Of a DNA stretch of 64,000 nt, positions 10,924 to 51,039 are shown piece after piece. Position 1 is the stretch's first letter, and every line of letters starts with the position of its first letter. Source of the stretch: Candidatus Nitrotoga sp. LAW (GTDB lineage Bacteria > Pseudomonadota > Gammaproteobacteria > Burkholderiales > Gallionellaceae); the NCBI GenBank assembly GCA_003402315.1, contig QFXI01000016.1, positions 1 to 64,000 on the forward strand, read 5' to 3'. The notes beneath the pieces were generated by a model. That model was not told the origin of the DNA, did not search any database, and was given only the letters and a program-made list of their open reading frames with translations. The translations under genes were made by a program, and so were the position numbers.

Positions 10924-12783
10924 ATGAACGTTTTTTATGAAGAAGATGGCACTTTCAAGGTCGGCTCGATCCTCACTGACAACACAACTTCTTTGCAAGT
11001 GGAAAGCACACATGGCAAGCGCAGCAAGATCAAGGCAGCCAACGTGCTGTTACGTTTTGCCCAACCGGGGCTGATTGAGTTTATGACACAGGCGGATGGC
11101 ATCGCAGCCGGTATTGATGTGGAATTTTTATGGGAATGTAGCCCGCCAGATGATTTCGGCTTTAATGAGCTGGCCAGTGAATATTTTGGCCACGCACCCA
11201 ATCCAATCGAAGCAGCGGGCACCTTGATCTGTCTCCATTCCTCACCAATGCACTTTTACAAAAAAGGCAAGGGGCACTACAAGGCCGCTCCACCGGATGC
11301 CCTCAAATCTGCGCTAGCCAGCGCCGAAAAAAAACGTCTACAAGCCGCCTTGCAAGCACGTTATACCAACGAGCTGGTCGCTTTCACTTTGCCGCCAGAA
11401 TTCACCAGCAAATTACCGCATCTGTTATATAAACCGGATCGCAACACCCTAGAGGTGAAAGCGCTGGAGGCCGCTTGCACCGCCACACACTTATCGGCCG
11501 CGCATTTATTGCAACGCTGCGGAGCAGTTCCTTCCACGCAGGCTTACCATTTGGAGCGCTTCTTATTTGAAAATTTCCCACATGGAACCAGTTTCGCTGA
11601 GATCAATCTGGATGTCTGGCCCGATCTGCCACTGGCAGTGGATACTGCATTTAGCATAGATGATGCGACCACCACGGAAATCGACGATGCTTTTTCGGTC
11701 AGAAAGCTTGCCAATGGCAACTGGCACATCGGTATACACATTGCTGCTCCTTCTCTGGGCATAGCGCCCGGTTCGCCAGGTGATGACATCGCGATGCGGC
11801 GCATGTCCACGGTATACATGCCTGGGGACAAGATCACCATGTTGCCAGACAGCGTGGTCCAGGCATTTACCCTAAGTGCAGACAAGGTTTGCCCGTCGCT
11901 TTCCATGTATCTCGAAGTCGATGCCGAAACCCTGTCCGTGCTTGGCACAGAAAGCCGTATTGAACGCATCCATATCGCCGCCAACCTGCGCCATGACACA
12001 CTGGAACCGCTATTCAACGAAGATACACTGGCAGCTGGCAAACAGGATTTTCTATTTGCGGCAGAGCTCACGCTATTATGGAATTTAGCGCAAAAGCTGG
12101 AAGCAACGCGTGGTAAATCTGCCGACAATAATATCCAACAGGTGGATTACAATTTTCACGTAGAAAACGACCGTGTCAGTATTAGCACTCGGCAGCGTGG
12201 TTCACCCATCGATAAGGTGGTGGCAGAACTGATGATTTTCGTTAACTCGGAATGGGGCAAGCTACTCGCGACACACGACGTAGTTGGCATCTACCGCACA
12301 CAAAGTAACGGCAAAGTGAAGATGAGCACCGTGCCGGCACCACACCAAGGATTAGGCGTGGCACAATATATATGGTCGAGTTCACCGCTGCGCCGCTACA
12401 TAGACTTTGTCAACCAGCGCCAAATAATCAGCCTGTTGCGCGAAGATCCACCCGTCTATGCCAAAAACGACACAGCACTGTTTACTGTTATGCGCGATTT
12501 CGATGCTGCCTATGTGGTGTACAACGAATTCCAGCGTAATATGGAACGTTACTGGTGTTTACGGTGGTTGCTACAAGAAAATATTCAGCAAGCAGAGGCG
12601 CTTGTGCTACGTGAAAACCTGGTAAGACTCATACACATCCCGCTGGTAAGCCGCATCCCATCACTACCGGAATTGCCGCCTAACACACGAGTTATCCTGG
12701 AAATAGGCGAAATTGACCTGCTCGACCTGAATTTCAATGCCCGCTTCATCTCCACGATAGAGGAGGAGGCTTCCGTTTGCTAG
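10924..12783 (+). CDS. RNB-domain exoribonuclease (RNase II/R family)
   Basis: 619 residues. The RNB core begins near 235 with VDTAFSIDDATTTEIDDAFSV, whose clustered Asp residues bind the catalytic metal. It ends with the conserved SSPLRRYIDFVNQRQI near 490. The N-terminal 200 residues replace the cold-shock domains with a less conserved region, as in the short proteobacterial RNase II-like proteins. It should degrade single-stranded RNA 3' to 5'. The last codons overlap the start of the TonB-like gene, whose Shine-Dalgarno sequence is inside this gene. That pairing recurs in betaproteobacteria as far as I recall. Rnb versus Rnr cannot be settled here. Confidence 0.87.
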   Translation: MNVFYEEDGTFKVGSILTDNTTSLQVESTHGKRSKIKAANVLLRFAQPGLIEFMTQADGIAAGIDVEFLWECSPPDDFGFNELASEYFGHAPNPIEAAGTLICLHSSPMHFYKKGKGHYKAAPPDALKSALASAEKKRLQAALQARYTNELVAFTLPPEFTSKLPHLLYKPDRNTLEVKALEAACTATHLSAAHLLQRCGAVPSTQAYHLERFLFENFPHGTSFAEINLDVWPDLPLAVDTAFSIDDATTTEIDDAFSVRKLANGNWHIGIHIAAPSLGIAPGSPGDDIAMRRMSTVYMPGDKITMLPDSVVQAFTLSADKVCPSLSMYLEVDAETLSVLGTESRIERIHIAANLRHDTLEPLFNEDTLAAGKQDFLFAAELTLLWNLAQKLEATRGKSADNNIQQVDYNFHVENDRVSISTRQRGSPIDKVVAELMIFVNSEWGKLLATHDVVGIYRTQSNGKVKMSTVPAPHQGLGVAQYIWSSSPLRRYIDFVNQRQIISLLREDPPVYAKNDTALFTVMRDFDAAYVVYNEFQRNMERYWCLRWLLQENIQQAEALVLRENLVRLIHIPLVSRIPSLPELPPNTRVILEIGEIDLLDLNFNARFISTIEEEASVC

Positions 12784-32204: not shown

Positions 32205-32717
32205 ATGTGGGCCGCTGAGCTTGTCCTGCAGCAAGAAGTGCATGCGCTCTATAGCAACCACCACGGTTGGCTATATAGATGGCTGCGCAAAAAGCTGGGC
32301 TGCTCCCATCGTGCTGCCGATCTGGCACATGATACTTTTGTGCGGTTACTTGCCCGCGAAGAGCCCGTGGCCATCCAGGAACCGCGCGCCTTTCTCACCA
32401 CCGTGGCTCAGCGTGTGCTGGCCAACCACTGGCGACGAGAGCAAATCGAACGAGCCTATCTCGATGTGCTGGCATGGATGCCCGAAGCCGTGGTGCCGTC
32501 GCCCGAAGAACGGGCCATCCTGCTCAAAACACTCCTCGAGATTGACCGCCTTCTTGACGGATTGCCGACATTGGCCAAGCGCGCATTCTTGCATGCCCAG
32601 CTCGACGGCATGACGCATGCCGAGATCGCAGCCGAACTCGGCATCTCCATCAGCACCATCAAGCGCCATCTGATACGTGCGGGCACCCAATGCTATTTCG
32701 CATTGACGGCAGACTGA
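32205..32717 (+). CDS. fecI: FecI-family ECF sigma factor
   Basis: About 170 residues from the ATG at 32205 (MWAAELVLQQEVHALY); AGGAAGG stands seven bases upstream of it but only one base from the ATG at 32199. Region 2 has HHGWLYRWLRKKLGCSHRAADLAHDTFVRLL, and region 4 has LDGMTHAEIAAELGISISTIKRHLI. The family is activated when a loaded outer-membrane receptor signals through FecR. It is followed 12 bases later by fecR and then the receptor gene. Its DNA is noticeably GC-richer than the genes from 34.5 kb on. Confidence 0.92.
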   Translation: MWAAELVLQQEVHALYSNHHGWLYRWLRKKLGCSHRAADLAHDTFVRLLAREEPVAIQEPRAFLTTVAQRVLANHWRREQIERAYLDVLAWMPEAVVPSPEERAILLKTLLEIDRLLDGLPTLAKRAFLHAQLDGMTHAEIAAELGISISTIKRHLIRAGTQCYFALTAD

Positions 32718-32729
32718 GGAAATACGCTA

Positions 32730-33827
32730 ATGAGTCTGGATGCTAGCCTTGGGGCAAATCCCGATGCAAACAACGCCCCATCTTCACCAAGTACCTCCCG
32801 CAACGATAGCAATGACCTTGGCCGCCCCAGCGACATCCCGCCATACATAGCCCGACGTGCGGTGGAATGGTTAGTAGAACTGCAATCCGGTTACGCCGAC
32901 ACCACTAGCCGACAGGCTCTGCAACACTGGCTAGGCCAGCATCCAGACCACGAACGTGCCTGGCGACACATCGAGGCCGTCAATGGCCAGCTACGCAGCG
33001 TGGCCTCTCCCTTGGTTTCGGCCATCGCACACGCTACGCTGGCGCCCCGCCGTTCAGTCAAACGCCGTAAGGTGATCAAGACCTTGGCCGTCCTGTTGTT
33101 CACGGGCGGTACAACCTGGATGACTAAAGACAGCACACCTTGGCGCGAATGGACAGCGGACGAACACACTGGCGTGGGTGAACGGCGCACCGTCACGTTA
33201 GCCGACGGCACCACCGTGACCCTGAACACAGCTAGCGCCATTAGCATACGCTTCAGCGCCACCGAACGCCGTGTGTTGCTGGTCAGCGGTGAAATTTTAG
33301 TGAGCACCGGCAAAGACACAGGTCACAACGGCAGCAGCAACGGGAGTGGCAATGGCCTGTCGCGCCCCTTTCTGATTGAAACCGCGCAGGGTGAACTTCA
33401 GCCACTGGGCACACGCTTCGTCGTGCGCCAACAGGCAGATGCTAGCCGGGTGGACATTTTCGAAGGCGCTGTCGACATCCGCCCGCACGATGGCGCCGGG
33501 GCAACCCGCATCCTGCGCGCTGGCGAACAAACCCGCTTCACTCGCAACGCCATCAATGAACCCACCGCGATCAATGACACCGATGCCGCGTGGATCGACG
33601 GCATGCTAGTCGCAAGTGGCATGCGCCTGGCCGATTTTCTCGCCGAACTCAGCCGCCACCGTCCCGGCCGCCTGAGCTGTGATCCAGCCATCGCCGAATT
33701 GCGCATTTCTGGCAGCTATCCACTGGCCAACACCGATCGCATCCTCGATACCCTGCCCACCACGCTACCGGTAGAGATTCACTTTCTCACGCGCTACTGG
33801 GTCACCGTGCGGCCGGCTCATACATAG
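32730..33827 (+). CDS. fecR: FecR-family anti-sigma regulator
   Basis: 365 residues. The N-terminal DUF4880 anti-sigma domain (~35-80: RRAVEWLVELQSGYADTTSR) is followed by a single membrane helix (~115-130, TLAVLLFTGGTTWM). The periplasmic FecR domain comes next (RRTVTLADGTTVTLNTASAI, LVSGEILVSTG) and a C-terminal STN-like lid (RLADFLAELSRHRPGRLSCD). A Ser/Gly/Asn-rich insert sits at ~195-205. It relays receptor occupancy to FecI. High GC, like fecI. Confidence 0.92.
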   Translation: MSLDASLGANPDANNAPSSPSTSRNDSNDLGRPSDIPPYIARRAVEWLVELQSGYADTTSRQALQHWLGQHPDHERAWRHIEAVNGQLRSVASPLVSAIAHATLAPRRSVKRRKVIKTLAVLLFTGGTTWMTKDSTPWREWTADEHTGVGERRTVTLADGTTVTLNTASAISIRFSATERRVLLVSGEILVSTGKDTGHNGSSNGSGNGLSRPFLIETAQGELQPLGTRFVVRQQADASRVDIFEGAVDIRPHDGAGATRILRAGEQTRFTRNAINEPTAINDTDAAWIDGMLVASGMRLADFLAELSRHRPGRLSCDPAIAELRISGSYPLANTDRILDTLPTTLPVEIHFLTRYWVTVRPAHT

Positions 33828-33850
33828 CTTTGTACTGCCGCATCAAACCT

Positions 33851-33873
33851 GTAGCCGAAAAAAATTCGGCTAC
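33851..33873 (+). terminator. Stem-loop between fecR and the receptor gene
   Basis: GTAGCCGAA (33851-33859) pairs perfectly with TTCGGCTAC (33865-33873) over a five-A loop. It lacks an immediate U-tract. It could separate regulator and receptor expression by partial termination or RNA processing, as expected if the receptor has its own FecI-dependent promoter just downstream. Confidence 0.5.
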
Positions 33874-33950
33874 GGTGGTCTATTTTTGATTCTCGCGGGA
33901 CATAGGTGTTAAGCGCATTACATCTCCAACCAGCCACAGAGGAATCAAAC

Positions 33951-36338
33951 ATGAAGCAACACAACAGAGCCGACATCGGCGGCGGCATCGACACCCGTAA
34001 CAGCGGCAAGGTGCCCAGTCTTCAACGCTTCACCCGTAGCCTACTGGCATGCGCCTTTACGACGACTGCTTTTACGGCGGTATCCATCTGGGCAACATCG
34101 GTGCATGCGGCCGACACAGCGACCATTGCAACTACGCACACTGCCTACAACATTCCCGCTGGTCCACTTGAAGGCGCACTCAACCGTTACGGTCGCGAGG
34201 CGGGCATCCTGTTGTCCTACCCCACCGAGCTCACGGCTGGACGGCACAGCCAAGGCCTGACCGGTACCCACAGCGTGCAGGAAGCCCTACCGCTGCTGCT
34301 TGCCGACACCGGCTTGACGGCGGTAGCTCAGCCAGGAGGCGGCTGGACGCTAGTGAGGCAGGATGAACCTAGCAAAACCCTGGAGGAAGTAACGGTTAGC
34401 GCAGACTGGCTTGGTTCTCCCACACCGAAAGCGGCGAAAAAACACCCTGGAGCACGGACGGTCATTACCAATCAAGAGCTGACCGAATCCGGTGCGCGCA
34501 CTGTGGAAGACGTATTGCGCGCTGTGCCCGGTGTGCGGGTTTTGGACGAAAGCGGTACAGGTATTCTGCCTAATATCGGTGTGCGCGGACTCAATCCGTT
34601 GCGTAGCGAACAAGTTTTAGTGTTGGTTGATGGCATCCCAATTACTCTCGCACCTTACGGACAAACCGGTCTGTCATTGTTTCCGCTAACGATGAATTCG
34701 ATCGAAACTATTGACGTAGCAAGGGGTGGGGTCGCTGTGCATTATGGTCCGAATAACGTCGGTGGCGTGATTAATTTCGTGACTAAGCGAATTCCACAAA
34801 AAACATCCCTGACCGTCAAGGAAACGTTGTCTGTCTTTTCCGGTGGAAATTTACTGGCAGATACGTATTTTCGTGCTGGTGGCTTCGTTAACGACAAGCT
34901 CGGCCTCCAACTACAAGCAAACGTAATCGATGGTAATACCGCGCGTGAACATTCCAAGACGGAAGTGAACAACCTAATGTTGGACAGTCATTGGCTGGTT
35001 ACCGACAAGTCCGAGGTAAAAGCGGGTATTCAATATTACAAAACCCAAAATCAACTGCCGGGCGCACTAACACCGAAATCCTATGAGCAGAACCGCAACC
35101 AGTCTACCCGACCATTAGACCATTTTAACGGTGATACCTTGCGCGGAAATTTGACGTATAACTATTTCTTCGATAATGGCGCAGAATTTAGTTGGATCAA
35201 CTTCGGGCATAAAAGTAACCGCGAATTTATATTTGGTAATTCCACCAACGCAGACATCGCGTCAACACAGAAACAATCGGCGCCTCGAAATTTTTTAGTG
35301 TACGGCAGCGAACCACGACTCACATTTAATATTGACGGTGGGATTAAGCAGAAAATTTCTGTTGGCGCACGCTATATGCGTGAGGAAGTTGACTATCTCG
35401 TTGATGCACGCACCCTGGCGACAGGCGCTTACACTGTTTCTCGCAACTGGCGTTTCGAGAACGATGCCTATGCCATTTACATGAGTGATACTTTCACGCT
35501 GTTAGACAACAAGTTGAAAATCACTCCGGGTATTCGCCGTGAGCAAATAGACCTCTACTACCGCAACAATCTTACCGGCGCTCAAACTCGTAATCCGACC
35601 ACGGATTGGTTGCCGGGCTTAGACATTGGATACCAAGCAAATAATGAGGTATTTGTGTTTGCAAATACTCACAAGTCGATGCGTCCTGTTCAGTTCACGC
35701 AGATTACGTTTGCCGCTGATCTGGCGTCCGAAAAAGCACAAAATTACGAAGCCGGAATCCGCTGGGCACCCACCAAAAATATCGATACCACTTTTACAGT
35801 CTTTCGTTTTGATTTTGACAATAAGCTCGAATTCGTGAATCAAATGGTGGGTTTCCGAAACCTCGGAAAAGCCCGCCATCAGGGGGTGGAAACTGAGTTT
35901 ACATGGCGGCCGGAGCAAATCCTCGGTCTCGAACTTAAAACTGGCTATACCTATGTCGATACTAAACAGCTTTCTGGTGCATTTCTTGGCAAGGAATTGC
36001 CTTTGGCAGCACACCATCAATTTAATCAACGTATTAATTACCACAGCGGAAACTGGAATTGGAATCTCACTGGCCTTTACCAAAGCGAATCATTTAGCGA
36101 CGGAGCCAATACAGTAACCGAAAACGCTACCGGATCAGTCGGCAAAATCCCATCGTATTCGGTATGGAACGCACAAGTCACACACAATTTACGCTGGAAT
36201 AGCAAAAAAATTAAAGCGGGACTGGCGATCAACAATCTATTCAATAATGATTATTACTTCCGCGGCGTCGATTACAGCCAAGGCCGATTGCCAGCGCCCG
36301 GACGGACAGCTTTGGTGACACTTCAAATTGATATTTAA
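33951..36338 (+). CDS. TonB-dependent siderophore receptor with STN signalling domain (FecA type)
   Basis: 795 residues from the ATG at 33951 (MKQHNRADIGGG), with AGAGGA upstream; an in-frame start at 33906 is less likely. Long signal peptide ending near VHA; STN signalling domain ~70-135 (IPAGPLEGALNRYGREAGILLSY); TonB box/linker EEVTVSADW; plug domain with TVEDVLRAVPGVRVLDE, IGVRGLNPLRSEQVLVLVDG and GGVINFVTK; then a 22-strand-type barrel ending ALVTLQIDI. The STN domain and the upstream fecIR show that it signals its own occupancy. The GC content drops visibly after the STN part (~34.4 kb). The siderophore is presumably the product of the genes just downstream. Confidence 0.93.
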   Translation: MKQHNRADIGGGIDTRNSGKVPSLQRFTRSLLACAFTTTAFTAVSIWATSVHAADTATIATTHTAYNIPAGPLEGALNRYGREAGILLSYPTELTAGRHSQGLTGTHSVQEALPLLLADTGLTAVAQPGGGWTLVRQDEPSKTLEEVTVSADWLGSPTPKAAKKHPGARTVITNQELTESGARTVEDVLRAVPGVRVLDESGTGILPNIGVRGLNPLRSEQVLVLVDGIPITLAPYGQTGLSLFPLTMNSIETIDVARGGVAVHYGPNNVGGVINFVTKRIPQKTSLTVKETLSVFSGGNLLADTYFRAGGFVNDKLGLQLQANVIDGNTAREHSKTEVNNLMLDSHWLVTDKSEVKAGIQYYKTQNQLPGALTPKSYEQNRNQSTRPLDHFNGDTLRGNLTYNYFFDNGAEFSWINFGHKSNREFIFGNSTNADIASTQKQSAPRNFLVYGSEPRLTFNIDGGIKQKISVGARYMREEVDYLVDARTLATGAYTVSRNWRFENDAYAIYMSDTFTLLDNKLKITPGIRREQIDLYYRNNLTGAQTRNPTTDWLPGLDIGYQANNEVFVFANTHKSMRPVQFTQITFAADLASEKAQNYEAGIRWAPTKNIDTTFTVFRFDFDNKLEFVNQMVGFRNLGKARHQGVETEFTWRPEQILGLELKTGYTYVDTKQLSGAFLGKELPLAAHHQFNQRINYHSGNWNWNLTGLYQSESFSDGANTVTENATGSVGKIPSYSVWNAQVTHNLRWNSKKIKAGLAINNLFNNDYYFRGVDYSQGRLPAPGRTALVTLQIDI

Positions 36339-36349
36339 GAAGGATCGTC

Positions 36350-37558
36350 ATGAAAGAACTGATTATTTTAGCCCACGTAATAACCGATTCTGTAAATGCT
36401 GGCTTTATTCCCGCCGCACAGCGCCTTGGCTTATCTATCATATTATTGACTGACCATACTGAAGCTCACAGGCAATATTTTAATCAAACGGGGCTTTCTG
36501 CTTACCCTAATGAAATTATCGCCTGTGATGTATTCAACCCGCTCGCAGTAATCGAAACGATCACTTGCCGTGCGGAGATGCCAGTGGCAATTTTTTCCAA
36601 CAGTGATCACTTGCAAACCAGTACAGCCATCGTTGCCGACTATTTTGGTTTGCCACGCAAAAACTGGCATGTCACATATCGCGCCAAAAATAAGGCGGCA
36701 ATGCGCGCCGACTTAAAAACCCGCGGTCTCGATATGCTCTGGTTTGCGGTTGTCTGCGATAAAACGGCGCTTGCTCAAGTTTTGGACAATGTTCCATTTC
36801 CATGCATCGTCAAGCCTCGCGAAGGTGTTGCCAGCCAACAAGTCAGCCTGAGTTATGGCCGTGCCGAACTCGAGGCACACTGTGCTGCTGCTTGGAGCAC
36901 TCAACCAGAACAACCTTTGCTTCTCGAAGAATATATCGAAGGTCCGCTCTATACACTGGAAACTCTTGGCGACGATCAGAAAGTCTGCGTACTCGGTGGA
37001 TTTAAAGTGAAATTGTCGCCGCCACCACATTTTGTCGAGCTAGAGGCAAGCTGGGGAACGGGACTAACAAACGCGCAAGAAACCCAAGTGGTCGACATTA
37101 TTCGCTGCTTTGGTGTTGGTTTTGGCGCATGCCACACAGAATTTGTTATGACCGATAAAGGTCCCCGTCTGATAGAAATAAACTATCGGAATATTGGCGA
37201 TTATCGCGAATTTTTAATGCAAGACACGCTCGATATTCCGTTATTTGAAATCGTTTTACGTCTCTATATGGGCGAACCTCTTCCACATTTAAATATCGCT
37301 CCCGATGCGGGATTAATTCGTTACTTCACCGCCCACTCTGCGGGTCGGCTTGCCAACGCGCCGGAAGCGTTTGTCCGGTATGCGGAAGACATTCAGGTCA
37401 CTTATAAGCCACTACGTATGATCGGCGATATTATCCATCTGACCAACTCTAACAAGGACTATGTTGGAGTCCTGCGCGGAGCGGGTTCCGATGCCCGATG
37501 TTTAGGTCTGGAGATGGATCGAATCACTAATGGGTTAGCGTGGAAGATCGACGCATGA
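36350..37558 (+). CDS. ATP-grasp ligase, PvsA/XssA-like
   Basis: 402 residues. An N-terminal Rossmann-like part is followed by an ATP-grasp fold: FPCIVKPREGVASQQVSLS (ATP-binding Lys and glycine loop), LLLEEYIEGPLYTLETLG and the metal site FVMTDKGPRLIEINYRNIGD. Such ligases join a carboxylate to an amine through an acyl phosphate. In vibrioferrin loci the first gene encodes a ligase of this type, thought to introduce the alanine unit. AAGGA precedes the start, 11 bases after the receptor stop. The role is inferred from gene order as well as fold. Confidence 0.8.
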   Translation: MKELIILAHVITDSVNAGFIPAAQRLGLSIILLTDHTEAHRQYFNQTGLSAYPNEIIACDVFNPLAVIETITCRAEMPVAIFSNSDHLQTSTAIVADYFGLPRKNWHVTYRAKNKAAMRADLKTRGLDMLWFAVVCDKTALAQVLDNVPFPCIVKPREGVASQQVSLSYGRAELEAHCAAAWSTQPEQPLLLEEYIEGPLYTLETLGDDQKVCVLGGFKVKLSPPPHFVELEASWGTGLTNAQETQVVDIIRCFGVGFGACHTEFVMTDKGPRLIEINYRNIGDYREFLMQDTLDIPLFEIVLRLYMGEPLPHLNIAPDAGLIRYFTAHSAGRLANAPEAFVRYAEDIQVTYKPLRMIGDIIHLTNSNKDYVGVLRGAGSDARCLGLEMDRITNGLAWKIDA

Positions 37559-39405
37559 AAACGATTGCTAACGAAATTATTGACAATATCCGCCTAGAAC
37601 ACACTGATGCCGAACATGCCGCATATATTTGCCATCGAGTGATTGATACCTTGTTGCGCGAAGACGTACGCGAATGTGTGAGCCGTTCAGAGCTGATACC
37701 TAACGCCGCATTGCCTGCGGAGTTAGATAAGTATGCAAAGGCTAACCTTGTTTGGCTCAAGGTAACCCATTTCGACGATGACGGCTGCCTGTGGATTCCA
37801 GTCGTCAACTCCACTTTCATGCAAGATTGGCGCGGAGCCGGATTCCCGCTGCTATGGCAGGAAGATGGAAAGGTTAGGAAGCTGCACGCGATAGAGGACA
37901 TTATCACTTGTTTCACCCGTGGCCTTAATCCAGCCGCAGTACTTCCGTTTAACGTATTTGCGGCGGAATGCCAGGTTGCCGCTGAACATCGCCAAGTCAG
38001 CGAAACCGAACGCGAACGCTGGTTTACCGAGTTACGTGCGCTGCATGGCATAGAGACTGGCACGCAGCTGCCCAATTGGCATGCCTGCCTGCTGCACTAT
38101 GATCGGCTCGGTGCGTTTCTCGATCATCCGTTTTATCCTACTGCGCGCGCCAAACTCGGTTTTGATACCAAGGCACTCGCCACTTACGGCCCTGAATTCC
38201 AGCGTAATTTCCTGTTGCACTGGCTAGCGGTGCCTCTCGCCCTCTATCACCCGAGCATAGGTAACGAACATAGCCTGCCACTTCTATGGCCTACTTTCGA
38301 AGCCGTTGGCCTGCCTGCCGCGATGGTGAATACGCACGCCTTGATTCCGATACATCCGTTCGTATGGGAACATGAACTTGCCCATTTTCTTGGTGAGGCT
38401 GGATTGCACGATGTAATTCGCGCTCCTCGTGCTTATCTCAGGGTCGTGCCGACGCTTTCGGTCCGTACCGTTGTGATGCTCGATACACCGGAATGGCATT
38501 TGAAGTTGCCGCTGACAATCCGCACGCTTGGTGCGAAAAATATTCGCACCATTAAGCCGAGTACGATCCAGGACGGCCACAGCATCCAAACCTTGCTTAC
38601 TGATATTGCCGCGTGTGAACCGTCAATTGCCAACCGTCTGCTGCTGACACGCGAAGATTGTGGTGGACATGTTGATAACAGGGTGTTCCTCGGCTATATC
38701 CTGCGCCGTTATCCGGTCGACGCCCTGCAAGAAAGTACGCTGATCCCAGTGGCAGCGCTATTGGCCCAAACGTCGACGGGAAACACAGTTGCCGAGGAAG
38801 CGGCGGCGCAATTTTACGACGGCGACCTTGAAGCTTTTTTTAATGATTATCTCGATCTGACGTTGCGTTTACATTTGCTGTTGTGGCTGCGTTATGGCAT
38901 AGCCCTTGAATCAAATCAGCAAAATTCCGTTGTCGTATTAAGCCAAGAAGAACCGCGGCTGCGCCTGCTGCTGAAAGATAACGACTCGGCGCGTATCCAT
39001 CTCGACTATCTAGCTCGGCGTTGGCCGAATTTGGCGGCCCATGTTGCCGAATTACAGGATCGACGCATTGTTGTTGCAAACGAGTTGCCGTTGGCACAAA
39101 TGTTCACGACGATTACCTTGCAACTCAATATTGCCGTATTGGTTGAGCGCTTCGCGGTTATTCTCGGTTTGCCTGCAACCACCCTGTATTTCCGCGTTAG
39201 GCTACGAATCGAAACCGTTTTGTCGGAATTAGCGGCAGAAGGCGAAAATATAACGCTGGCAAATCAACTACTACTCGAAGATGATCGGCTTTATATCAAA
39301 TACCTGCTGATCGCCGCCACCCTGGCTGAAAAAACTGAAACGGGTGCTACAGATGTCAACAAGTTCTATGGTCGTAGCGCACCTAATTTTTTGAGGTCGA
39401 CATGA
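37555..39405 (+). CDS. IucA/IucC-family siderophore synthetase, PvsB/XssB-like
   Basis: 616 residues from the ATG at 37555, four bases before the stop of the ligase gene. NIS synthetases activate a carboxyl of citrate or 2-oxoglutarate with ATP and condense it with an amine or alcohol. Visible marks are DHPFYPTARAKLGF (usual GHPxHPxxKxRxG) near 190, IPIHPFVWEHEL near 265 where most members have HPWQ, LKLPLTIRTLGAKN, and the C-terminal LRLLLKDNDSARIHLDY. The altered HPWQ motif sets it apart from the second synthetase at 40597. It overlaps the exporter gene by four bases. Confidence 0.85.
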   Translation: MKTIANEIIDNIRLEHTDAEHAAYICHRVIDTLLREDVRECVSRSELIPNAALPAELDKYAKANLVWLKVTHFDDDGCLWIPVVNSTFMQDWRGAGFPLLWQEDGKVRKLHAIEDIITCFTRGLNPAAVLPFNVFAAECQVAAEHRQVSETERERWFTELRALHGIETGTQLPNWHACLLHYDRLGAFLDHPFYPTARAKLGFDTKALATYGPEFQRNFLLHWLAVPLALYHPSIGNEHSLPLLWPTFEAVGLPAAMVNTHALIPIHPFVWEHELAHFLGEAGLHDVIRAPRAYLRVVPTLSVRTVVMLDTPEWHLKLPLTIRTLGAKNIRTIKPSTIQDGHSIQTLLTDIAACEPSIANRLLLTREDCGGHVDNRVFLGYILRRYPVDALQESTLIPVAALLAQTSTGNTVAEEAAAQFYDGDLEAFFNDYLDLTLRLHLLLWLRYGIALESNQQNSVVVLSQEEPRLRLLLKDNDSARIHLDYLARRWPNLAAHVAELQDRRIVVANELPLAQMFTTITLQLNIAVLVERFAVILGLPATTLYFRVRLRIETVLSELAAEGENITLANQLLLEDDRLYIKYLLIAATLAEKTETGATDVNKFYGRSAPNFLRST

Positions 39406-40574
39406 AAAATGAGCGGCGTAACATCGTCGCCACCATCATGGTTTGCCATTTTATAGCGGCTTTCGCAGCGCTTGGCATGCCGCCGTTTTTTGCGCTGATA
39501 CTCAATAAATCATTGCACAGCGAAGCCACCTATCTGGCTGGATGGTTATATGTCATGCCAACTTTTTTTACTGCGATAAGCAGCCCGTGGTGGGGTAAGT
39601 TGGCGGATAAATATGGCAAGAAGCCCTTATTGTTGCGCGCTCAACTAGGATTGGCGGGAAGTTTTCTGCTTGCCGGGTATGCCCAAAATATCTGGGTATT
39701 CTTCATTGCTTTATCACTGCAAGGTCTACTCGGCGGAACCTTCGCCGCATCCAACGCTTATTTGGCTACCGCAGTAAGCGGTACGGATCTAACCCGCAGT
39801 CTGACGTTGATGCAATGGTCGGCACGGGCGGCGCTGGTAATCGCACCGGCGGGATTGGGCCTACTAATGACTATCGAGTCTCCTCTTGAGTTATATCGCT
39901 ACCTGGCGCTGTTACCGCTAATCGCTGCGCTGTTTATTGGATGGTTACCTGTTTACCAAGTACAAACGGCGACTAAAGCGCCAATGCAAGCCACCGGTAA
40001 AGTGAAAGAGGCCACGTCTCAGCAAGTCTACGCCTTGCAGTTTGCGTTCATATTTGCCACCGTAATTACGTTTCCTTATTTTATTCCCTTTGTTCAAGCT
40101 GATTCCGGCTCAGTTTCGCCGGCTGTAGCCGGGCTGTTGTTTGGGCTCCCGCATTTGATCTATCTATTGTGCGCAGTACCATTGGGTCGTTATTTGGGGC
40201 AGCGCGGCTTGGTGTCCATGCTATCGATATCATACCTGTTGCTAGCTGCATCATTATTCGGTCAGGCGCTGTTTCCGTCGCTACCCGCCGTGATTACCTG
40301 GCGCATCATAATGGGATTCAGCATGACCATCGGCTTCATAGGATTGCATGCGTTGATCGCGGGCATCGTAACCAGTGGCAATGCGGGGCGCACCTTCGGC
40401 TGGTTCGAAAGCAGTTCCAAATGGGGCGCCGTTATCGCCGGTTTGATTGCCGGTGCTGTGGTTCAAATGCTCGATTTACGCGCCCCTTTTTTTATTGGCG
40501 CGTTCACTCTATTCATCGCTGGCTTATATCTGGCTGGCTTAGCCGCATATCGTTTACACCTAAACAATTCTTAG
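39402..40574 (+). CDS. MFS siderophore exporter, PvsC/XssC-like
   Basis: 390 residues with 12 predicted membrane helices. The loop 2-3 motif reads GKLADKYGKKPLLLRAQ, the standard MFS signature. It lies between two NIS synthetase genes and overlaps the first by four bases, the position of pvsC, the vibrioferrin exporter. It should export the finished siderophore across the inner membrane. It ends 22 bases before the next gene. Confidence 0.87.
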   Translation: MKNERRNIVATIMVCHFIAAFAALGMPPFFALILNKSLHSEATYLAGWLYVMPTFFTAISSPWWGKLADKYGKKPLLLRAQLGLAGSFLLAGYAQNIWVFFIALSLQGLLGGTFAASNAYLATAVSGTDLTRSLTLMQWSARAALVIAPAGLGLLMTIESPLELYRYLALLPLIAALFIGWLPVYQVQTATKAPMQATGKVKEATSQQVYALQFAFIFATVITFPYFIPFVQADSGSVSPAVAGLLFGLPHLIYLLCAVPLGRYLGQRGLVSMLSISYLLLAASLFGQALFPSLPAVITWRIIMGFSMTIGFIGLHALIAGIVTSGNAGRTFGWFESSSKWGAVIAGLIAGAVVQMLDLRAPFFIGAFTLFIAGLYLAGLAAYRLHLNNS

Positions 40575-40596
40575 CCATTACTAATTAGGAGGAACC

Positions 40597-42435
40597 ATGC
40601 ATACCAATAATTTGGCGGAAGCCATCGACTCCGTACAAATAGCTCAACAGGAAGCCGGCCGACGCTCTATGGAAACATTGCTTAATTGTTATTGCCGTGA
40701 GGTGGCGGGTCCGGAAGGGCAGTTAAGCGTGGGGCCTTTATTCGGCCAAAACGATAATCCGGTATCCATACGACTGGCTTTACAGCGTAGCGGCGGCCGC
40801 ATCATGCACGTTCGGCTGCCGCTTACCGGAGACCGTCTGCTCACGGTAGTCGACGGCGCTTCCCCCACTAATAATTACCGCTACCACTCGCCGTTCTATT
40901 GCAAATCCCCGGGAAAACCCTGGGCCTTGCTGGATTGGCAAGTGTTGGCGGGGCTTTTGCTACGCGAGATGTCTTTGAAGAATAAACTGTCTGTGAACGA
41001 TGAATTGATGCAACAGATTCACGACAGCGTTGCAGTAACCACTGCCATTCTATGCGCCTCCCACCCTAAACGTTTTTCGCAAAAACCTTTACAGGCATTT
41101 ATTGAATCCGAACAATCGCTGATTTTTGGCCATCCGTTTCACCCCGCTCCGAAAAGCCGCCAAGGTGTTTCTTACGAAGACATGTTGCGTTATTCGCCAG
41201 AAACAGGGGCGAACTTCCCTCTGCATTATTTCACAGTACGCCGCGAATATTTATTGCAACAATCGGTGCTTACCGAGTCGTGTGATCGAATTGTCACGGC
41301 CCAGGCACCCGCCGGTCTCGCCGCTGACGATGAGTTTGCTTTGATTCCAACCCATCCATGGCAGGCACGCTATCTGCTCGGCCATGCAAGCGTTGCGGCA
41401 GCAATCCGAACCGGACGTATCTGCGACCTGGGGCAACAAGGGCCAAATTATTATCCCACTTCGTCAATCCGCACCTTGTTCCATCCCGACAATCCGTATT
41501 TCTATAAATGTTCGTTGAACATCCGAATAACCAACTGCGTACGCAAAAATGCGGTTTACGAACTTGAGGGCGCACTGCAAGTGACCAGGATCATGCGCGC
41601 ATTAATACCTAGTTTGGAGCTGCAATTCCCGGGTATCCGAGTGCTGGAAGAGCCAGCGTTCATTTCGGTGGATCTAAAGCAGGAAGATCAGTTTGCCAAG
41701 GAGGTGACCGAAGGCTTCGGCATGATCCTGCGGCAAAATTTCGCCGATGTGCTGCTTACCGGTGTAACGCCTATTTTGGCCGGCGCGTTATTCGGCAACC
41801 ACGTCTATGGAGAAGCTCGCATTCGCGAGTTGCTTGCTGACATGGAGCAGCGTAGGAAAATACCTTTCGAGGCGGCGGCCGAACAATGGTTTTCGCGTTA
41901 CGTCGCCGAAATCATGTATCCGGTACTGCATTGCTATTTCGCTCACGGTGTCATATTCGAACCGCACTTACAAAACGTGCTGATCGGCGTGGCCGGAGGG
42001 GAACCGCAACAGATTTTCTTGCGCGATTTCGAGGGGGTCAAGCTGGTGAAAGAGCGCTATTGCGCAAATCAACTGGAAGCCATAAGCCCGCGCGCCCGCG
42101 AGTCCCTTTGGTATAGCAATGATCAGGGATGGAAACGAGTTGCCTATTGCCTGTTCGTCAACAATTTCTGCGAGGCGATCAGCCAGATCAGTGCAGGTAA
42201 ACCGGCATTACAAAATCGCTTATGGGCGATGGTACGGCACCATCTGCATGTTTATCAAAGTCGCTATGGGGACGACGTTTCGGCACGGTGCATTAATGCC
42301 TTGTTTAATGGTGAGCCTCTTCCAGGAAAAGCAAATCTGACCAACCGTTTCTTCAAGCGGCCGGATCGCGCTTCAGGGTATTTACCGGTTAATAATCCGC
42401 TGGGTTCGCTGGGAAAGGATAGCGTATGGAGTTAA
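40597..42435 (+). CDS. IucA/IucC-family siderophore synthetase, PvsD/XssD-like
   Basis: 612 residues, with AGGAGG seven bases before the ATG… a strong start. The NIS motifs are canonical: GHPFHPAPKSRQG (~178-190), IPTHPWQARYLL (HPWQ at 253-256), YKCSLNIRITNCVRKN, and EPHLQNVLIGV with FLRDFEGVKL near the C-terminus. By analogy with PvsD it would condense citrate with serine to give a citryl-serine ester, the substrate of the decarboxylase encoded next. That assignment is from synteny. It overlaps the decarboxylase gene by ten bases. Confidence 0.88.
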   Translation: MHTNNLAEAIDSVQIAQQEAGRRSMETLLNCYCREVAGPEGQLSVGPLFGQNDNPVSIRLALQRSGGRIMHVRLPLTGDRLLTVVDGASPTNNYRYHSPFYCKSPGKPWALLDWQVLAGLLLREMSLKNKLSVNDELMQQIHDSVAVTTAILCASHPKRFSQKPLQAFIESEQSLIFGHPFHPAPKSRQGVSYEDMLRYSPETGANFPLHYFTVRREYLLQQSVLTESCDRIVTAQAPAGLAADDEFALIPTHPWQARYLLGHASVAAAIRTGRICDLGQQGPNYYPTSSIRTLFHPDNPYFYKCSLNIRITNCVRKNAVYELEGALQVTRIMRALIPSLELQFPGIRVLEEPAFISVDLKQEDQFAKEVTEGFGMILRQNFADVLLTGVTPILAGALFGNHVYGEARIRELLADMEQRRKIPFEAAAEQWFSRYVAEIMYPVLHCYFAHGVIFEPHLQNVLIGVAGGEPQQIFLRDFEGVKLVKERYCANQLEAISPRARESLWYSNDQGWKRVAYCLFVNNFCEAISQISAGKPALQNRLWAMVRHHLHVYQSRYGDDVSARCINALFNGEPLPGKANLTNRFFKRPDRASGYLPVNNPLGSLGKDSVWS

Positions 42436-43664
42436 GGTTAGCCGAAGTATTTGAAAGTATTTGCGCTGTACAGGCCGATACCGACGAGCCATTGTGTGCC
42501 TATGTATATGACTTGGCGGCCTTGCGGCGGCATGCGGCAAATTTGGTCAGAACTTTACCTGAAGGCTATGAATTGTTTTACGCGATAAAAGCCAATTCTG
42601 ATCTACCAATTCTGCAGACACTGGCGCCGATCATGGATGGTTTCGAGGTGTCCTCGGGCGGTGAGCTAGCTTGGGTGCGCGAACACTTTACAGATGTGCC
42701 AGTGATTTTTAGCGGCCCGGGCAAATTGGATCAGGAACTTGGTGAGGCGATAGATCAAAATGTCGATTGTTTGCATGTCGAAAGTTTTAACGAATTGCGG
42801 CGGTTAGCCGGGATTGCCATCCAGACGGGTAAAGCGGTAGCGGTATTGTTACGTATCAACATGGTAGTCGACAACTTGGCAGAAACCAGCTTGATGATGG
42901 GTGGAAAACCAACTCCATTTGGAATTTCTATTCAGCAATTGCCAGAATGCATGCGATGGTTACGGGCTCATCCTGAAATTCGGCTGCATGGCTTTCATTT
43001 TCACTTGTTGTCACATCAGCTCGATGCCCAAGCCCATCTGCAACTAGTGGCGTCATACCTGAAACAAGTACGGCGATGGTGCGATGTGTACGAGCTGGAA
43101 ATCGATCATATCAATGTAGGCGGCGGTATTGGTATCAATTACCGGCAACCTCAACAGCAATTCGACTGGACAGTTTTTAGTGCCGGGTTGCCAGCGTTGT
43201 TAAAAAATAGCGGCTTGCCTGGGATCCGTGTACGTTTTGAGTTAGGGCGTTATATCACCGCCGCCTGCGGCTACTATGTGATGCAAATTATCGATATCAA
43301 GCGGAGCTACGGCAAGGGCTTTATAGTCGGCAGAGGCGGCTCACATCACTTTCGCACCCCTTATGCGCAAGGTCACAGTCATCCGTTTCATGTGATACCA
43401 ATCAATGAATGGCAATACCCATTTCCGCGCCCTGGGATTTCCAACGAGAAAGTAAATATAGTGGGGCAATTATGCACGCCGAAAGACTTACTGGCATTTG
43501 ACGTGTCGGTCAAATCGGCGCGTTGTGGCGACTTGCTGGTATTTCCTTATGCGGGTGCCTATGCCTGGCATATATCCCATCATGATTTTTTGCGCCATCC
43601 CCATCCGCAGCAATGGTATTTGCCGATAGAGGAACAACCACATGTTGCAAACCAATCAACTTAA
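42426..43664 (+). CDS. PLP-dependent decarboxylase, PvsE/XssE-like
   Basis: 412 residues, an alanine-racemase-fold group IV decarboxylase. The PLP Lys is in FYAIKANSD (near 58); other landmarks are FEVSSGGEL, HGFHFHLLSHQLD, INVGGGIGINY, ELGRYITAACG, and the C-terminal QLCTPKDLL and PYAGAYAWHISHHDFL. In vibrioferrin, achromobactin and staphyloferrin B pathways such an enzyme decarboxylates an amino acid already bound to citrate. It overlaps both neighbours (10 and 23 bases), so expression is tightly coupled. Confidence 0.88.
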   Translation: MELRLAEVFESICAVQADTDEPLCAYVYDLAALRRHAANLVRTLPEGYELFYAIKANSDLPILQTLAPIMDGFEVSSGGELAWVREHFTDVPVIFSGPGKLDQELGEAIDQNVDCLHVESFNELRRLAGIAIQTGKAVAVLLRINMVVDNLAETSLMMGGKPTPFGISIQQLPECMRWLRAHPEIRLHGFHFHLLSHQLDAQAHLQLVASYLKQVRRWCDVYELEIDHINVGGGIGINYRQPQQQFDWTVFSAGLPALLKNSGLPGIRVRFELGRYITAACGYYVMQIIDIKRSYGKGFIVGRGGSHHFRTPYAQGHSHPFHVIPINEWQYPFPRPGISNEKVNIVGQLCTPKDLLAFDVSVKSARCGDLLVFPYAGAYAWHISHHDFLRHPHPQQWYLPIEEQPHVANQST

Positions 43665-44403
43665 GCAGGCGCTCGTTAATGGCAAAACTGTTTTCGGATT
43701 ACTCAATTCGATTCCGTCGCCGTTGGTAGTCGAAATGATCGGCTATGCGGGCTATGATTTCGTGATTTTGGACATGGAACATGTTTGCGTGAATCCAGAA
43801 ACACTTGAAAACATGGTGCGGGCCGCTGAATGCGCCGACATGACACCCTTGGTCAGAGTGCCCAATGCCGCGCCGGAAAGCATCTTGCGCGCATTGGATT
43901 GCGGCGCTCAAGGGATCGTCGTACCGCATGTGCGCAATCGCTTCGATGCCGAACAAGCAGTCGCCGCCAGCCGATATTACCCACTGGGAAGCCGTGGCAT
44001 CAGTGGGGGACGCACCACCGGTTTCGGCACTCTTGATCTACCGACTTATTTTGAGCGAGCCAATGCTGAAATCATGGTGGTAGCGATGATCGAGGATAAA
44101 GAAGGCATTGATAATCTGGATGCCATTCTATCTGTCGCCGGTATTGACATGGTGCTTGAAGGGGCGATCGACTTATCGCAATCTTACGGTCTGCCAGGGC
44201 AAGCGCAACATCCGAGCGTGGAAGCTGCAATCGATAAAATTGCTATCGCCTGCTTCGAGCGCAATGTCAAATTCTGCGCGATTCCGCGTGCCGCAAATCA
44301 ACTAAATGCCTGGAAGAAGCGCGGTGTGCTGGCCTATTTGCTGGGAGACGACCGGGGAGTAAGCTTTCGGGCGCTCAAAGCTCACTTGGTAGGATTTAAG
44401 TAA
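43642..44403 (+). CDS. HpcH/HpaI-aldolase-fold citrate synthase, SbnG/AcsB-like
   Basis: 253 residues, an (beta/alpha)8 metal-dependent aldolase fold: FGLLNSIPSPLVVEMIGYAG, ILDMEHVCVNPETLENM, GAQGIVVPHVRN, GRTTGFG, and VLEGAIDLSQSYGLPGQ. The combination NSIPSP...EMIGYAGYDF...GRTTGFG...EGAIDLSQSYG is, as I recall, that of SbnG, the alternative citrate synthase of the staphyloferrin B pathway, and of AcsB in achromobactin loci. It would make citrate from oxaloacetate and acetyl-CoA for the siderophore. GAGGA lies nine bases before the ATG. It is the last gene of the biosynthetic operon. Confidence 0.82.
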   Translation: MLQTNQLKQALVNGKTVFGLLNSIPSPLVVEMIGYAGYDFVILDMEHVCVNPETLENMVRAAECADMTPLVRVPNAAPESILRALDCGAQGIVVPHVRNRFDAEQAVAASRYYPLGSRGISGGRTTGFGTLDLPTYFERANAEIMVVAMIEDKEGIDNLDAILSVAGIDMVLEGAIDLSQSYGLPGQAQHPSVEAAIDKIAIACFERNVKFCAIPRAANQLNAWKKRGVLAYLLGDDRGVSFRALKAHLVGFK

Positions 44404-44424
44404 CCTGTTAGAAAGAAGCTGACA

Positions 44425-44580
44425 ATGCCGCACTTCGCTGACGTTTTTATATTCCCCAAACTAATACTCAGACTTAGAGACAAAGCCGAAGAAACCAAAG
44501 AACTCCCTGTAGTGTCTGTAACAGCCGAACGCATGGGAAACTTCAAGTCCGATCTTGTTCAGGTTGGTGCATTCCTTTAG
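44425..44580 (+). pseudogene. N-terminal relic of a TonB-dependent receptor
   Basis: A 51-codon frame whose second half reads KELPVVSVTAERMGNF, then KSDLVQVGAF and stops. This is the TonB-box and linker pattern of many siderophore receptors (LPxVxVTAxR ... xxVQVGAFRD). The plug and barrel are gone; 168 non-coding bases follow before the PepSY gene. PepSY reductase genes commonly follow receptor genes, so a receptor was probably lost here by deletion. Confidence 0.55.
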
Positions 44581-44748
44581 TTAAGTGGTTGGACTTACGT
44601 CAAACATCGCCATTCATAGCATCCCTGGTCGAAAGTCGGGACAGAGGACTTAGTCCTTTGGACCGTATTGATTACGTAAATCAATCCATTTGATTGAAGA
44701 TGTTTATCGTGCAGGCAGCCCAAAACAAAACTGCCGGAGATATCAATA

Positions 44749-45849
44749 GTGACTGCTAGAAAAACTGTTTTCCAATTACATCTGTATACCGGTTTGACTA
44801 TCGGATTGCTGCTGATATTAAGCGGGCTGACCGGTAGCATGTTGGTATTTCGCGAAGAGATCGAGGCGCTGGTATATCCAGAATTGATGAACACGGTACC
44901 GCGTGACGAGCGTGTTTCTTTACAAGCGGTACTGGAAACAGTGCAGCACGCCCATCCGGAAGACAAACCGTTTTTCATCCGTATACCGCGCACTCCAGAG
45001 CAAACCTATTTAGTTAAGATGAACAATGCGCATGATTTGTTCGTTTATGTTGATCCTTATAGCGGCATGATTTTGGGTGAGCACCGACAGGAAGATACAT
45101 TTACCGGATGGATTGCGCTTCTGCACACCGAACTTTTAAGTGGCGAGCGTGGCGAAATTATCCTTGGTATAAGTGCCTTGCTGCTGATCGGCATGAGCAT
45201 AACTGGCCTCATTTTATGGTGGCCGCGAAACGGAAAGTTTTCCTCGGGGTTTAAAATCCAGTGGGCCACACAATGGAAAAGGATTAATTTTGATATACAT
45301 CGTGCCTCGGGTATTTATACCGTCCTTTTTATTCTGCTGACTGCTTTTACAGGCACATCTTTAGTATTTAATAAAACGGTTATCAACTTGATCAATACCA
45401 TCACTCAAAGCCCACCGCGGGCTGCCCCACCGCTTTCCGATCCTCGTCAAGCATGGATGCCGAGGCCTGCACTCGACATGATGTTGCATCAAGCCGACTC
45501 CATACTGCCCGCCTCCACCACCTGGATTAATTTGCCCCAGAAACCGACGGCACCCTTAGTAGTGCGAAAAAAACTAACCCAAGAATTTCATCCAAATGGT
45601 AGAAACTTCGTCTATTTCGATCAATATTCAGGAAAGGTATTACAGGTGGAAAACGCGTTGACGGCCTCTCTTGGCACGCGCATTTTTAATACACTTTACC
45701 CGATACATATCGGTGTAATAGGCGGGACGCCTACCCGTCTTTTACAAGTGATCATCGGTTTGTCGCCGCTCATTCTATTTACCACCGGCTATGTCATGTG
45801 GTGGAACAGAAGGAAGGCGAAACAATATCACTCCCGCCTAATAAAATAA
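44749..45849 (+). CDS. PepSY-associated membrane protein (ferric-siderophore reductase type)
   Basis: 366 residues, GTG start with CCGGAGA eight bases upstream. Four membrane helices (~12-35, ~140-162, ~190-212, ~335-355) with two periplasmic PepSY-like loops. The helix-end signatures FQLHLYTGLTIGLLLILSG, LLHTELLSG, FDIHRASGIY and YPIHIGVIGG carry the paired His that can bind haem. Members of this family act in reductive iron release from siderophores at the inner membrane. It closes the siderophore region, downstream of the receptor relic. Confidence 0.85.
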   Translation: MTARKTVFQLHLYTGLTIGLLLILSGLTGSMLVFREEIEALVYPELMNTVPRDERVSLQAVLETVQHAHPEDKPFFIRIPRTPEQTYLVKMNNAHDLFVYVDPYSGMILGEHRQEDTFTGWIALLHTELLSGERGEIILGISALLLIGMSITGLILWWPRNGKFSSGFKIQWATQWKRINFDIHRASGIYTVLFILLTAFTGTSLVFNKTVINLINTITQSPPRAAPPLSDPRQAWMPRPALDMMLHQADSILPASTTWINLPQKPTAPLVVRKKLTQEFHPNGRNFVYFDQYSGKVLQVENALTASLGTRIFNTLYPIHIGVIGGTPTRLLQVIIGLSPLILFTTGYVMWWNRRKAKQYHSRLIK

Positions 45850-49923: not shown

Positions 49924-51039
49924 ATGAAAATCGGCATACCTAAAGAAATCAAAGCAAACGAAAGCCGTGTCGCACTGGTTCCATCCGGCGCAGAATCGCT
50001 TATTGCGGCCGGGCATTCTGTGCTGATCGAGGCAGGTGCAGGATTGGGTAGTGGCTTCAGGGACGAGCAATATCTTGTGGCAGGGGCACGTATCGTCCCC
50101 AATGCCGACACAATATGGGCGGATACCGATCTGATAGTGAAAGTCAAAGAGCCGATTGAGCCCGAGTGGCCGCACATCAAGCCTGGTCAAACGCTGTTCA
50201 CCTATTTTCATTTTTCCGCTAACGAAAAACTAACCCAAGCGCATCTGGATTCTGGTGCAACTTGCATCGCTTATGAAACGATTGAATTACCTACACGCGA
50301 ATTGCCACTGCTGACACCCATGTCTGAAGTCGCTGGACGCATGGCCGTAAATGAAGGGGCCAAATATCTCGAAAAACTTTATGGTGGACGGGGCGTTTTG
50401 TTAGGGGGTGTCCCCGGTGTGCCACCCGCACATGTTGTCATCCTTGGCGGCGGTGTAGTGGGCATGAATGCCGCCAAAATGGCAGCAGGTCTGGGCGCAA
50501 GTGTCACCATCCTTGACATTTCACTGGAGCGACTACGCTACCTGAGCGATGTTATGCCCGCTAACGTACAGTTGATTTTTTCCAATCGACACAATTTGCT
50601 GGAACAGATTGCCACCGCCGATCTTGTCATCGGCGGGGTGTTAATCACCGGAGCCGTTGCGCCCAAACTGATACGCTACGATGATCTTAAGACCATGCGC
50701 CAAGGCTCGGTGATCGTAGATGTTGCAGTGGATCAAGGCGGTTGCATTGAAACAACCCATCCCACCACGCACGAAAACCCAATCTATTTGGTCGAGGGAG
50801 TCATTCACTATGCTGTGGCAAACATGCCTGGCGCCCTACCCCGCACTTCCACGCTGGCGCTAACCAATGCAACTTTGCCTTATGTGCTGCAATTGGCAAA
50901 TAAAGGCTGGAAACAGGCACTAAAAGATAACACTACGTTGCGCAAAGGACTCAATATCGTGAATGGAAAAATCACTCATCACGCAGTCGCACAGGCATTC
51001 GGAATGCTGGCCTACGCACCAGAAACTTTTCTCGATTAA
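49924..51039 (+). CDS. ald: Alanine dehydrogenase
   Basis: 371 residues, the standard length. N-terminal [20 protein letters not shown], substrate residues in [14 protein letters not shown], catalytic His in the AYETIELP to [12 protein letters not shown] region, NAD-binding [22 protein letters not shown] and C-terminal [23 protein letters not shown]. It interconverts alanine and pyruvate with ammonia and NADH. Alanine is also a presumed building block of the siderophore, but there is no operon link. It converges on the amidotransferase gene with an eight-base gap. Confidence 0.96.

Follow-up and report, generated by a model that had tools for sequence, protein, structure and literature searches.

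Among citrate siderophore operons of Gram-negative bacteria, xssABCDE of Xanthomonas has the gene order of pvsABCDE, the vibrioferrin operon of Vibrio. The composition of the Vibrio cluster is described in PMC5812596 (as in all citations here marked "in part", the source is represented by an excerpt), and we also inspected loci L035 and L132; xanthoferrin is the Xanthomonas product (PMC5130282, in part). Here we describe a locus in a 64,000-nucleotide stretch (the window) of contig QFXI01000016.1 from Candidatus Nitrotoga sp. LAW, a nitrite oxidiser with a genome of 2.81 Mb in 33 contigs. It shares with the Vibrio pvsABCDE/pvuA system the five-gene order, the PvsB clade and a PvuA-type receptor, but differs from both the vibrioferrin and the xanthoferrin operons in having an extra SbnG-like gene, a receptor with an STN domain, FecI and FecR, and a PepSY protein, and in lacking an adjacent ATP-binding cassette (ABC) importer. 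We read the locus, with a probability of about three in four, as a complete vibrioferrin-type system that domain capture has made into a self-sensing circuit, with PepSY-aided removal of iron in the periplasm.

Control of siderophore biosynthesis by FecI and FecR is already known for achromobactin and petrobactin. In Pseudomonas syringae achromobactin is under AcsS, loss of which lowers the biosynthetic transcripts, and a FecR-like gene and a TonB receptor adjoin (PMC3329529, PMC3597554, both in part); this cluster resembles ours in combining a citrate siderophore with a FecI-like sigma factor, a FecR-like gene and a TonB receptor, but has AcsA, AcsC and AcsD as its synthetases, another product and an ABC importer in the cluster. 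In Sinorhizobium fredii, FecI binds the fprA promoter and activates fprA-asb-fat, a locus assembled horizontally (PMC8822346, in part). There too FecI-FecR lies beside a receptor and a biosynthetic polycistron, but the product is petrobactin, an ABC importer (fat) and RirA control are present, and the excerpt describes neither an STN-less sister receptor nor a swap of signalling domains. In the engineered PupBA chimera a moved STN domain made the receptor signal via the donor pathway (Koster 1994, told in PMC9249621, in part), whereas the joins in Nitrotoga are natural and involve two receptors at one chromosomal site. The staphyloferrin B genes sbnA-I have the SbnG-like enzyme in common with the window, in whose operon SbnA and SbnB are missing and two synthetases of the NRPS-independent siderophore (NIS) type stand instead of three.

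The circuit logic and the modularity of the signalling domain are thus established, and it is the natural exchange of that domain between receptors that is of chief interest. In a search of open-licence articles, a weak negative, we found no vibrioferrin-type operon wired to FecIR and STN and no article combining vibrioferrin with SbnG; none of the matches listed named vibrioferrin together with signalling terms, and no signalling domain naturally shared by two receptors was found, as judged mostly on titles and the starts of abstracts.

A signalling head joined to a PvuA-type receptor

The receptor of the window, R1, looks like a chimera in which a signalling head, comprising the signal peptide and the STN domain, has been grafted onto an STN-less PvuA-type receptor; a second receptor of the locus is termed R2. 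Its gene spans 33951-36338, the ATG common to relatives being preferred over a GTG at 33906. Within this one gene the GC content drops at the seam, from 62.1% before it to 47.2% after it, the head resembling fecI and fecR in this respect (Table 1). The window matches the head-bearing Nitrotoga genome G001 as far as 34356, and its match to the STN-less R1 of strain 1052 (G014) and of G016 sets in at 34358-34359. The R1 of 1052 (L003) has 690 residues and continues directly from its signal peptide into QDEPSKTLEEV; in the window the same residues come after the STN domain. The receptors that adjoin pvs in Vibrio fortis (42%) and Piscirickettsia are 42-43% identical to R1.

The same head is found on R2 in G001. 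Its last base there is L072:9411, and from L072:9413, which corresponds to base 66 in the STN-less R2 gene of 1052, the sequence is homologous to R2. Judged by eye, each seam falls where the signal peptide of the STN-less receptor ends.

The sequence-only reading had assigned an STN domain to the receptor, and this holds: although the window domain scores 22.8 bits against a Pfam cut-off of 28.4, and those of strains CP45 (G006; 22.8) and HW29 (G013; 25.4) also fall short, the orthologues of SPKER (G004; 30.6) and G001 (28.6) pass, and a profile built from four STN sequences matches the solved receptors FoxA, PupB, FecA, HasR and FpvA (E 3e-18 to 2e-4). For residues 139-363 of FecR the best solved relative (E 2e-46) is chain R of 6ovk, paired there with the signalling domain of PupB and taken by us to be PupR. 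The FecI-FecR-FecA signalling set, an extracytoplasmic function (ECF) sigma factor, a FecR with DUF4880 and FecR domains and an STN receptor, is complete in the window. The sigma factor scores 179 bits with the FecI model NF041727, under its cut-off of 260. Its gene may start at the ATG at 32205 or at 32199, the latter equivalent to the start of the SPKER frame; the open frame reaches up to 32064, and CP45 and G008 partly resemble the window in this extension, but the sigma family match starts only at residue 53 of the longest frame. An AlphaFold model of the receptor had a mean pLDDT (predicted local distance difference test score) of 44.6 and was set aside.

Predicted biosynthesis, control and iron release

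All ten genes proposed from the sequence alone, from fecI to the aldolase gene followed by that for PepSY, were found open on the plus strand, and domain scans confirmed every gene named (Table 1). The middle five lie in pvsABCDE order, as had been claimed: ATP-grasp ligase, NIS synthetase, major facilitator superfamily (MFS) protein, NIS synthetase and pyridoxal phosphate (PLP) decarboxylase, an order also seen at L035, L036 and L132. Because the genes from the receptor to the aldolase overlap or sit at most 22 bases apart (+11, -19, -4, +22, -10 and -23 bases), a single transcript across them is plausible; the FecR-receptor and aldolase-PepSY gaps measure 123 and 345 bases. The arrangement is not due to chance, since three more Nitrotoga genomes (CP45, SPKER and HW29) have the full gene order at this site, a fourth (G008) has it without biosynthesis, and the five Pvs genes with the aldolase recur together across many genera.

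Table 1. Features of the siderophore locus, numbered on the 64,000-nucleotide window.
Feature	Position	Strand	Evidence	GC
FecI-type ECF sigma factor	32205..32717	+	NF009180, 247 bits (cut-off 184)	58.9%
FecR-type sigma regulator (anti-sigma)	32730..33827	+	PF04773, 68.5 bits; DUF4880, 53.3 bits; both above cut-off	60.7%
FecR-receptor spacer with candidate FecI-type promoter GAAAAA...GGTGGTC	33828..33950	+	Pattern match
Head: signal peptide and STN domain	33951..34356	+	PF07660, 22.8 bits (below cut-off)	62.1%
R1 plug and beta-barrel, PvuA-type TonB-dependent receptor	34357..36338	+	PF07715, PF00593	47.2%
PvsA-like ATP-grasp ligase	36350..37558	+	PF02655/PF13535 above cut-off; 42% to Vibrio fortis
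PvsB-like NIS synthetase	37540..39405	+	PF04183, PF06276; PvsB clade 100/100
PvsC-like MFS exporter	39402..40574	+	PF07690; 37% to Vibrio fortis protein in same position
PvsD-like NIS synthetase (AcsD type)	40597..42435	+	PF04183, PF06276; nearest solved relative AcsD, E 8e-85; tree
PvsE-like PLP decarboxylase	42426..43664	+	PF02784, PF00278; 47% to Vibrio fortis
SbnG-like aldolase, probable siderophore-dedicated citrate synthase	43642..44403	+	Structure-sequence match, E 2e-70
R2 gene remnant	44434..44638	+	blastn to intact R2 of 1052: 142 bases 72.5%, 58 bases 79%
PepSY_TM protein, candidate ferric-siderophore reductase	44749..45849	+	PF03929, 232 bits

A phylogeny of 55 NIS proteins, with long branches flagged, unites PvsB with its namesakes from Vibrio, Piscirickettsia and Sphingomonas at 100/100; the AcsA/SbnC-like proteins of Sodalis and G016 fall elsewhere, and the clustering with a different NIS pathway that would have refuted the earlier proposal is not seen. 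PvsD shares a clade (98/97) with the PvsD of Vibrio and the achromobactin enzyme AcsD of Sodalis, within which the branching order is not resolved. Membership of the achromobactin, aerobactin and staphyloferrin B families was rejected on this tree and on gene content: the genome has only two NIS genes, both in the operon, and not the three of the achromobactin and staphyloferrin B pattern, and domain scans of the window operon found no diaminobutyrate or SbnA/SbnB enzymes.

The nearest solved relatives of the aldolase are 4tv5 and 4tv6, matched at full length over 250 residues; both are deposited as 2-dehydro-3-deoxyglucarate aldolase and presumably represent SbnG. The next molecule follows at E 7e-35, and this comparison sets the enzyme apart from the HpcH/HpaI aldolases (7e-35 or worse). 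The blocks LEGAIDLSQS and LGDDRG are alike in 4tv5/4tv6, Sodalis AcsB and the SbnG of G016. SbnG supplies citrate in the staphyloferrin B pathway. Given the NIS clades, the five-gene order and the SbnG-nearest aldolase, the operon most likely makes vibrioferrin or something close to it, with citrate provided by an enzyme of its own.

In the proposed circuit PvsA, PvsB, PvsD and PvsE, with the SbnG-type citrate synthase, would build vibrioferrin or a closely similar carboxylate siderophore based on citrate, which the MFS protein would export, and the ferric complex would re-enter through R1. The grafted STN domain of R1 would then touch FecR, causing it to release FecI, and transcription of R1-PvsABCDE-aldolase by FecI would close a positive loop. 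If this is correct, the cell probably detects the return of its own iron carrier and raises production. The earlier proposal of a vibrioferrin-like operon under FecI-FecR is supported by the gene content and order and by the NIS tree. A FecI-like promoter pattern occurs between FecR and R1 in five of the six loci with a head, but is weak evidence because the six sequences are related; it was not found at the paralogous FecIR locus L081 or at the Thiogranum and Sphingomonas loci described below.

Some observations weigh against this circuit. The head locus of CP45 is the one without the promoter pattern, which itself rests on a general consensus applied to six related sequences. A scan for a Fur box before fecI, made against the E. 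coli 19-base consensus, found nothing above chance in any of the six head loci (the window and five relatives), the best match of 11/19 being equalled by 69-83% of randomised sequences, so that the scan gives no support for iron control of this gene; a conserved block some 60 bases before its start is only a candidate site. Furthermore, Nitrotoga 1052 retains the operon without STN or FecIR, and the loop must be dispensable there.

FoxB is a PepSY_TM ferric-siderophore reductase that acts by periplasmic reduction. The PepSY protein of the window likewise has a PepSY_TM domain and linkage to the receptor, and occurs in the same 9 of 19 Nitrotoga genomes as matches to the receptor, the match in G001 being to the head only; chance would give this co-occurrence at about 1e-5 if the genomes were independent, which they are not. 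The PepSY copy of HW29 and one of those in 1052 contain a stop. No ABC importer of the pvuBCDE type was found among the seven flanking frames scanned. The genome has one FecCD permease, which by eye adjoins an ABC ATPase and housekeeping-like genes, and one such permease above the cut-off is present in 17 of the 19 Nitrotoga genomes, with or without the operon. As no dedicated siderophore ABC importer is seen, iron would probably be released in the periplasm with the help of PepSY, and the way that PepSY tracks the receptor, together with the indifference of FecCD permeases to the operon, favours periplasmic reduction over ABC import.

Two other readings of the operon bear on its product and its control. 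The Pvs proteins are 35-47% identical to their Vibrio fortis counterparts, and the aldolase of the Nitrotoga branch is not listed behind the same five genes on the Vibrio fortis, Vibrio THAF190c and Piscirickettsia plasmids, as would suit a citrate siderophore related to vibrioferrin but distinct from it, on a separate branch and with other building blocks. We consider this possible but rather doubtful, given that the five Pvs proteins keep their order, that PvsB joins the Vibrio clade at 100/100, and that an SbnG which merely supplies citrate, its role in the staphyloferrin B pathway, need not alter the product. On Cupriavidus necator pHG1 a receptor, the five genes and the aldolase stand together, with FecIR neither listed nor detected. 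It is somewhat less likely again that FecIR controls uptake only, the STN domain adding induction of the receptor while biosynthesis runs from its own Fur-controlled promoter. STN-less operons elsewhere do manage without FecIR, and Fur-like boxes above chance precede STN-less R1-type genes in 2 of 11 upstream regions (L009, 17/19; Methylobacter, 15/19), but the 11 bases between R1 and pvsA, with later genes overlapping or nearly so, leave little room for a promoter outside coding sequence, and FecI of S. fredii switches on fprA-asb-fat as a single polycistron (PMC8822346, in part).

Origin of the join within Nitrotoga

PvsD is matched in 7 of the 19 Nitrotoga genomes, in six at 75% or more, and these are the only matches among 158 genomes of the family; FecR is matched at 82% or more in 6 of the 19. 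The window PvsD is 93-96% identical to the proteins of 1052, SPKER, HW29 and CP45, in all of which PvsABCDE and the aldolase are open. Boddicker and Mosier (2018) reportedly included SPKER and CP45 in their study. The intact six-gene operon in these two strains, like the apparently complete staphyloferrin B-type set of G016 (below), is contrary to a 2021 review which states, citing that study, that siderophores are not present in Nitrotoga (PMC8494671, in part).

One chromosomal site carries head-R1-PvsABCDE-aldolase in the window, CP45, SPKER and HW29. At the same site G008 has head-R1, a PvsA stub (residues 1-86) and an STN-less R2, and G001 has the head joined to R2, with no pvs genes and with the R2 gene split by an apparent transposase gene. 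After the aldolase, R2 is intact in CP45 (L125:1466-3583) and a remnant in the window, SPKER and 1052. Of the ten other genomes in which the left neighbour of the site could be located, eight were compared. In Ca. N. fabula (G002), G009, G012 and 1052 the flanking genes are immediate neighbours, the matched stretches being separated by 57 bases; G017 and G005 have no island and other genes between the flanks; and in G015 and G016 the right neighbour lies outside the stretch covered. By its flank G005 is the nearest relative of the window. No FecR match at E 1e-10 was obtained in Ca. N. fabula, 1052 or G016, the three Nitrotoga genomes with an STN-less R1. In the orthologous operons of Thiobacillus, Nitrosomonas aestuarii and Nitrotoga 1052, R1 has no STN domain and no FecIR is adjacent.

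The simplest history that these layouts suggest is one in which an STN-less R1-pvs-R2-PepSY locus came first and the head joined R1 once in this lineage. Later deletions would have removed biosynthesis in G008 or fused the head to R2 in G001, and G005 would have lost the island or never had it. Since R2 or its remnants lie downstream of the aldolase, one deletion from a layout of the CP45 type yields that of G001. More broadly, FecI-FecR-STN may be a naturally exchangeable head, joined just past the signal peptide to two distantly related receptors at one site in one genus, a proposal to which we give even odds. On R1 the head would sense the cell's own product; after the loss of biosynthesis it would stay on R1 (G008) or move to R2 (G001), and self-sensing would become detection of the siderophores of neighbours. 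How a siderophore system acquired cell-surface signalling can be followed at single-base resolution in the natural series of STN-less R1, head-R1 with biosynthesis, head-R1 without it and head-R2, and receptor swaps would allow it to be tested. The presence of producers and probable receiver-only genomes in one genus makes siderophore sharing or cheating among nitrite oxidisers open to test.

The single gain of the head is complicated by several results. The full-length R1 tree nests the STN-less Nitrotoga receptors (1052, G016 and Ca. N. fabula) inside the STN group, and so fails as proof that STN was gained; PvsB and PvsD of the STN-less 1052 likewise nest among STN-type genomes. Identity windows reveal a mosaic segment in the R1 barrel at 34690-35210, where, over 34851-35150, the window is 94-97% identical to the STN-less 1052 and 99% to G008, as against 69-75% to CP45, SPKER and HW29. 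On these profiles receptor copies have undergone gene conversion or exchange, which weakens the single-gain reading without overturning it; the segment may also change ligand-binding loops. When the R1 tree was rebuilt without the segment, and on the segment alone (the segment being picked after the profile was viewed), removal of 34690-35210 gave a group of the five STN forms with support of 83/83 and one of the STN-less Nitrotoga forms with 100/100. Finally, an R1-type receptor of Thiogranum (L028), absent from the R1 tree and 47% identical, carries STN beside another FecI.

These same results, the nesting of the STN-less R1 forms and of PvsB and PvsD of 1052 and the STN-bearing receptor of Thiogranum, would be expected if the STN receptor were ancestral in Nitrotoga or older and the STN-less copies were secondary losses. 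This we think unlikely: none of the five outgroup R1s in the tree has STN, the signal peptide of the STN-less Nitrotoga R1 aligns by eye with those of the outgroup, GC steps at the seam, the nesting vanishes once the recombinant segment is removed, and the FecI next to the Thiogranum receptor shares only 27% identity with that of the window. An equally improbable course is that the head was first on R2, as in G001 where it is joined at the same site, and that an R1-pvs block inserted later to give the window form, since G001 sits among the STN-R1 genomes whether the tree is built on the head (unrooted, with midpoint display) or on the flank (supports moderate, 86-92), and R2 persists downstream of the aldolase as a remnant (window, SPKER) or intact (CP45).

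Similar wiring elsewhere and neighbouring observations

Beyond the window, STN receptors are found in 5 of 35 loci with PvsD relatives, namely three from Nitrotoga, one from Thiogranum (L028) and one from Sphingomonas (L030); three of the 35 had no receptor within the stretch covered. The supposition that PvuA-type receptors lack STN holds for most relatives compared (two Vibrio records, Piscirickettsia and the five outgroup R1s) and fails for Thiogranum. In the Thiogranum metagenome-assembled genome (L028:2149-5255) FecI and the STN-bearing R1-type receptor precede the operon, FecR not being detected, and in Sphingomonas sp. YR710 (L030:1667-5781) FecI, FecR and an STN receptor stand directly before PvsABCDE. 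Because the FecI of the former and the FecR of the latter are each only 27% identical to those of the window, the FecIR-STN wiring of such operons probably arose more than once. The window's own genome encodes two FecR-domain proteins in total, the second within a 683-residue open frame.

Of two ammonia oxidisers with related genes (L011, L025), Nitrosomonas aestuarii Nm36 has the full operon with aldolase and PepSY, and N. eutropha Nm57 a different cluster with two NIS genes. The operon of L009, on a contig binned as Planctomycetota, groups with that of N. aestuarii, and the assignment is probably a binning error.

Other siderophore genes occur between R1 and R2. In G016 (L076, G016:C23:130000-149900; 1287-12265, minus strand) an apparently complete staphyloferrin B-type set lies between the STN-less R1 and R2, in the place of the relatives' pvsABCDE; SbnA and SbnB score above curated cut-offs and the other genes were assigned by best match or position. 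In G008, L073:9304-10015, between the PvsA stub and R2, holds fragments of a second, STN-less R1 and a gene that we provisionally call SbnI-like, which we read as fossils of further siderophore cassettes. Alanine is a building block of vibrioferrin. An alanine dehydrogenase gene lies near the island in the window (49924-51039), and the same old neighbour is present in genomes without the operon.

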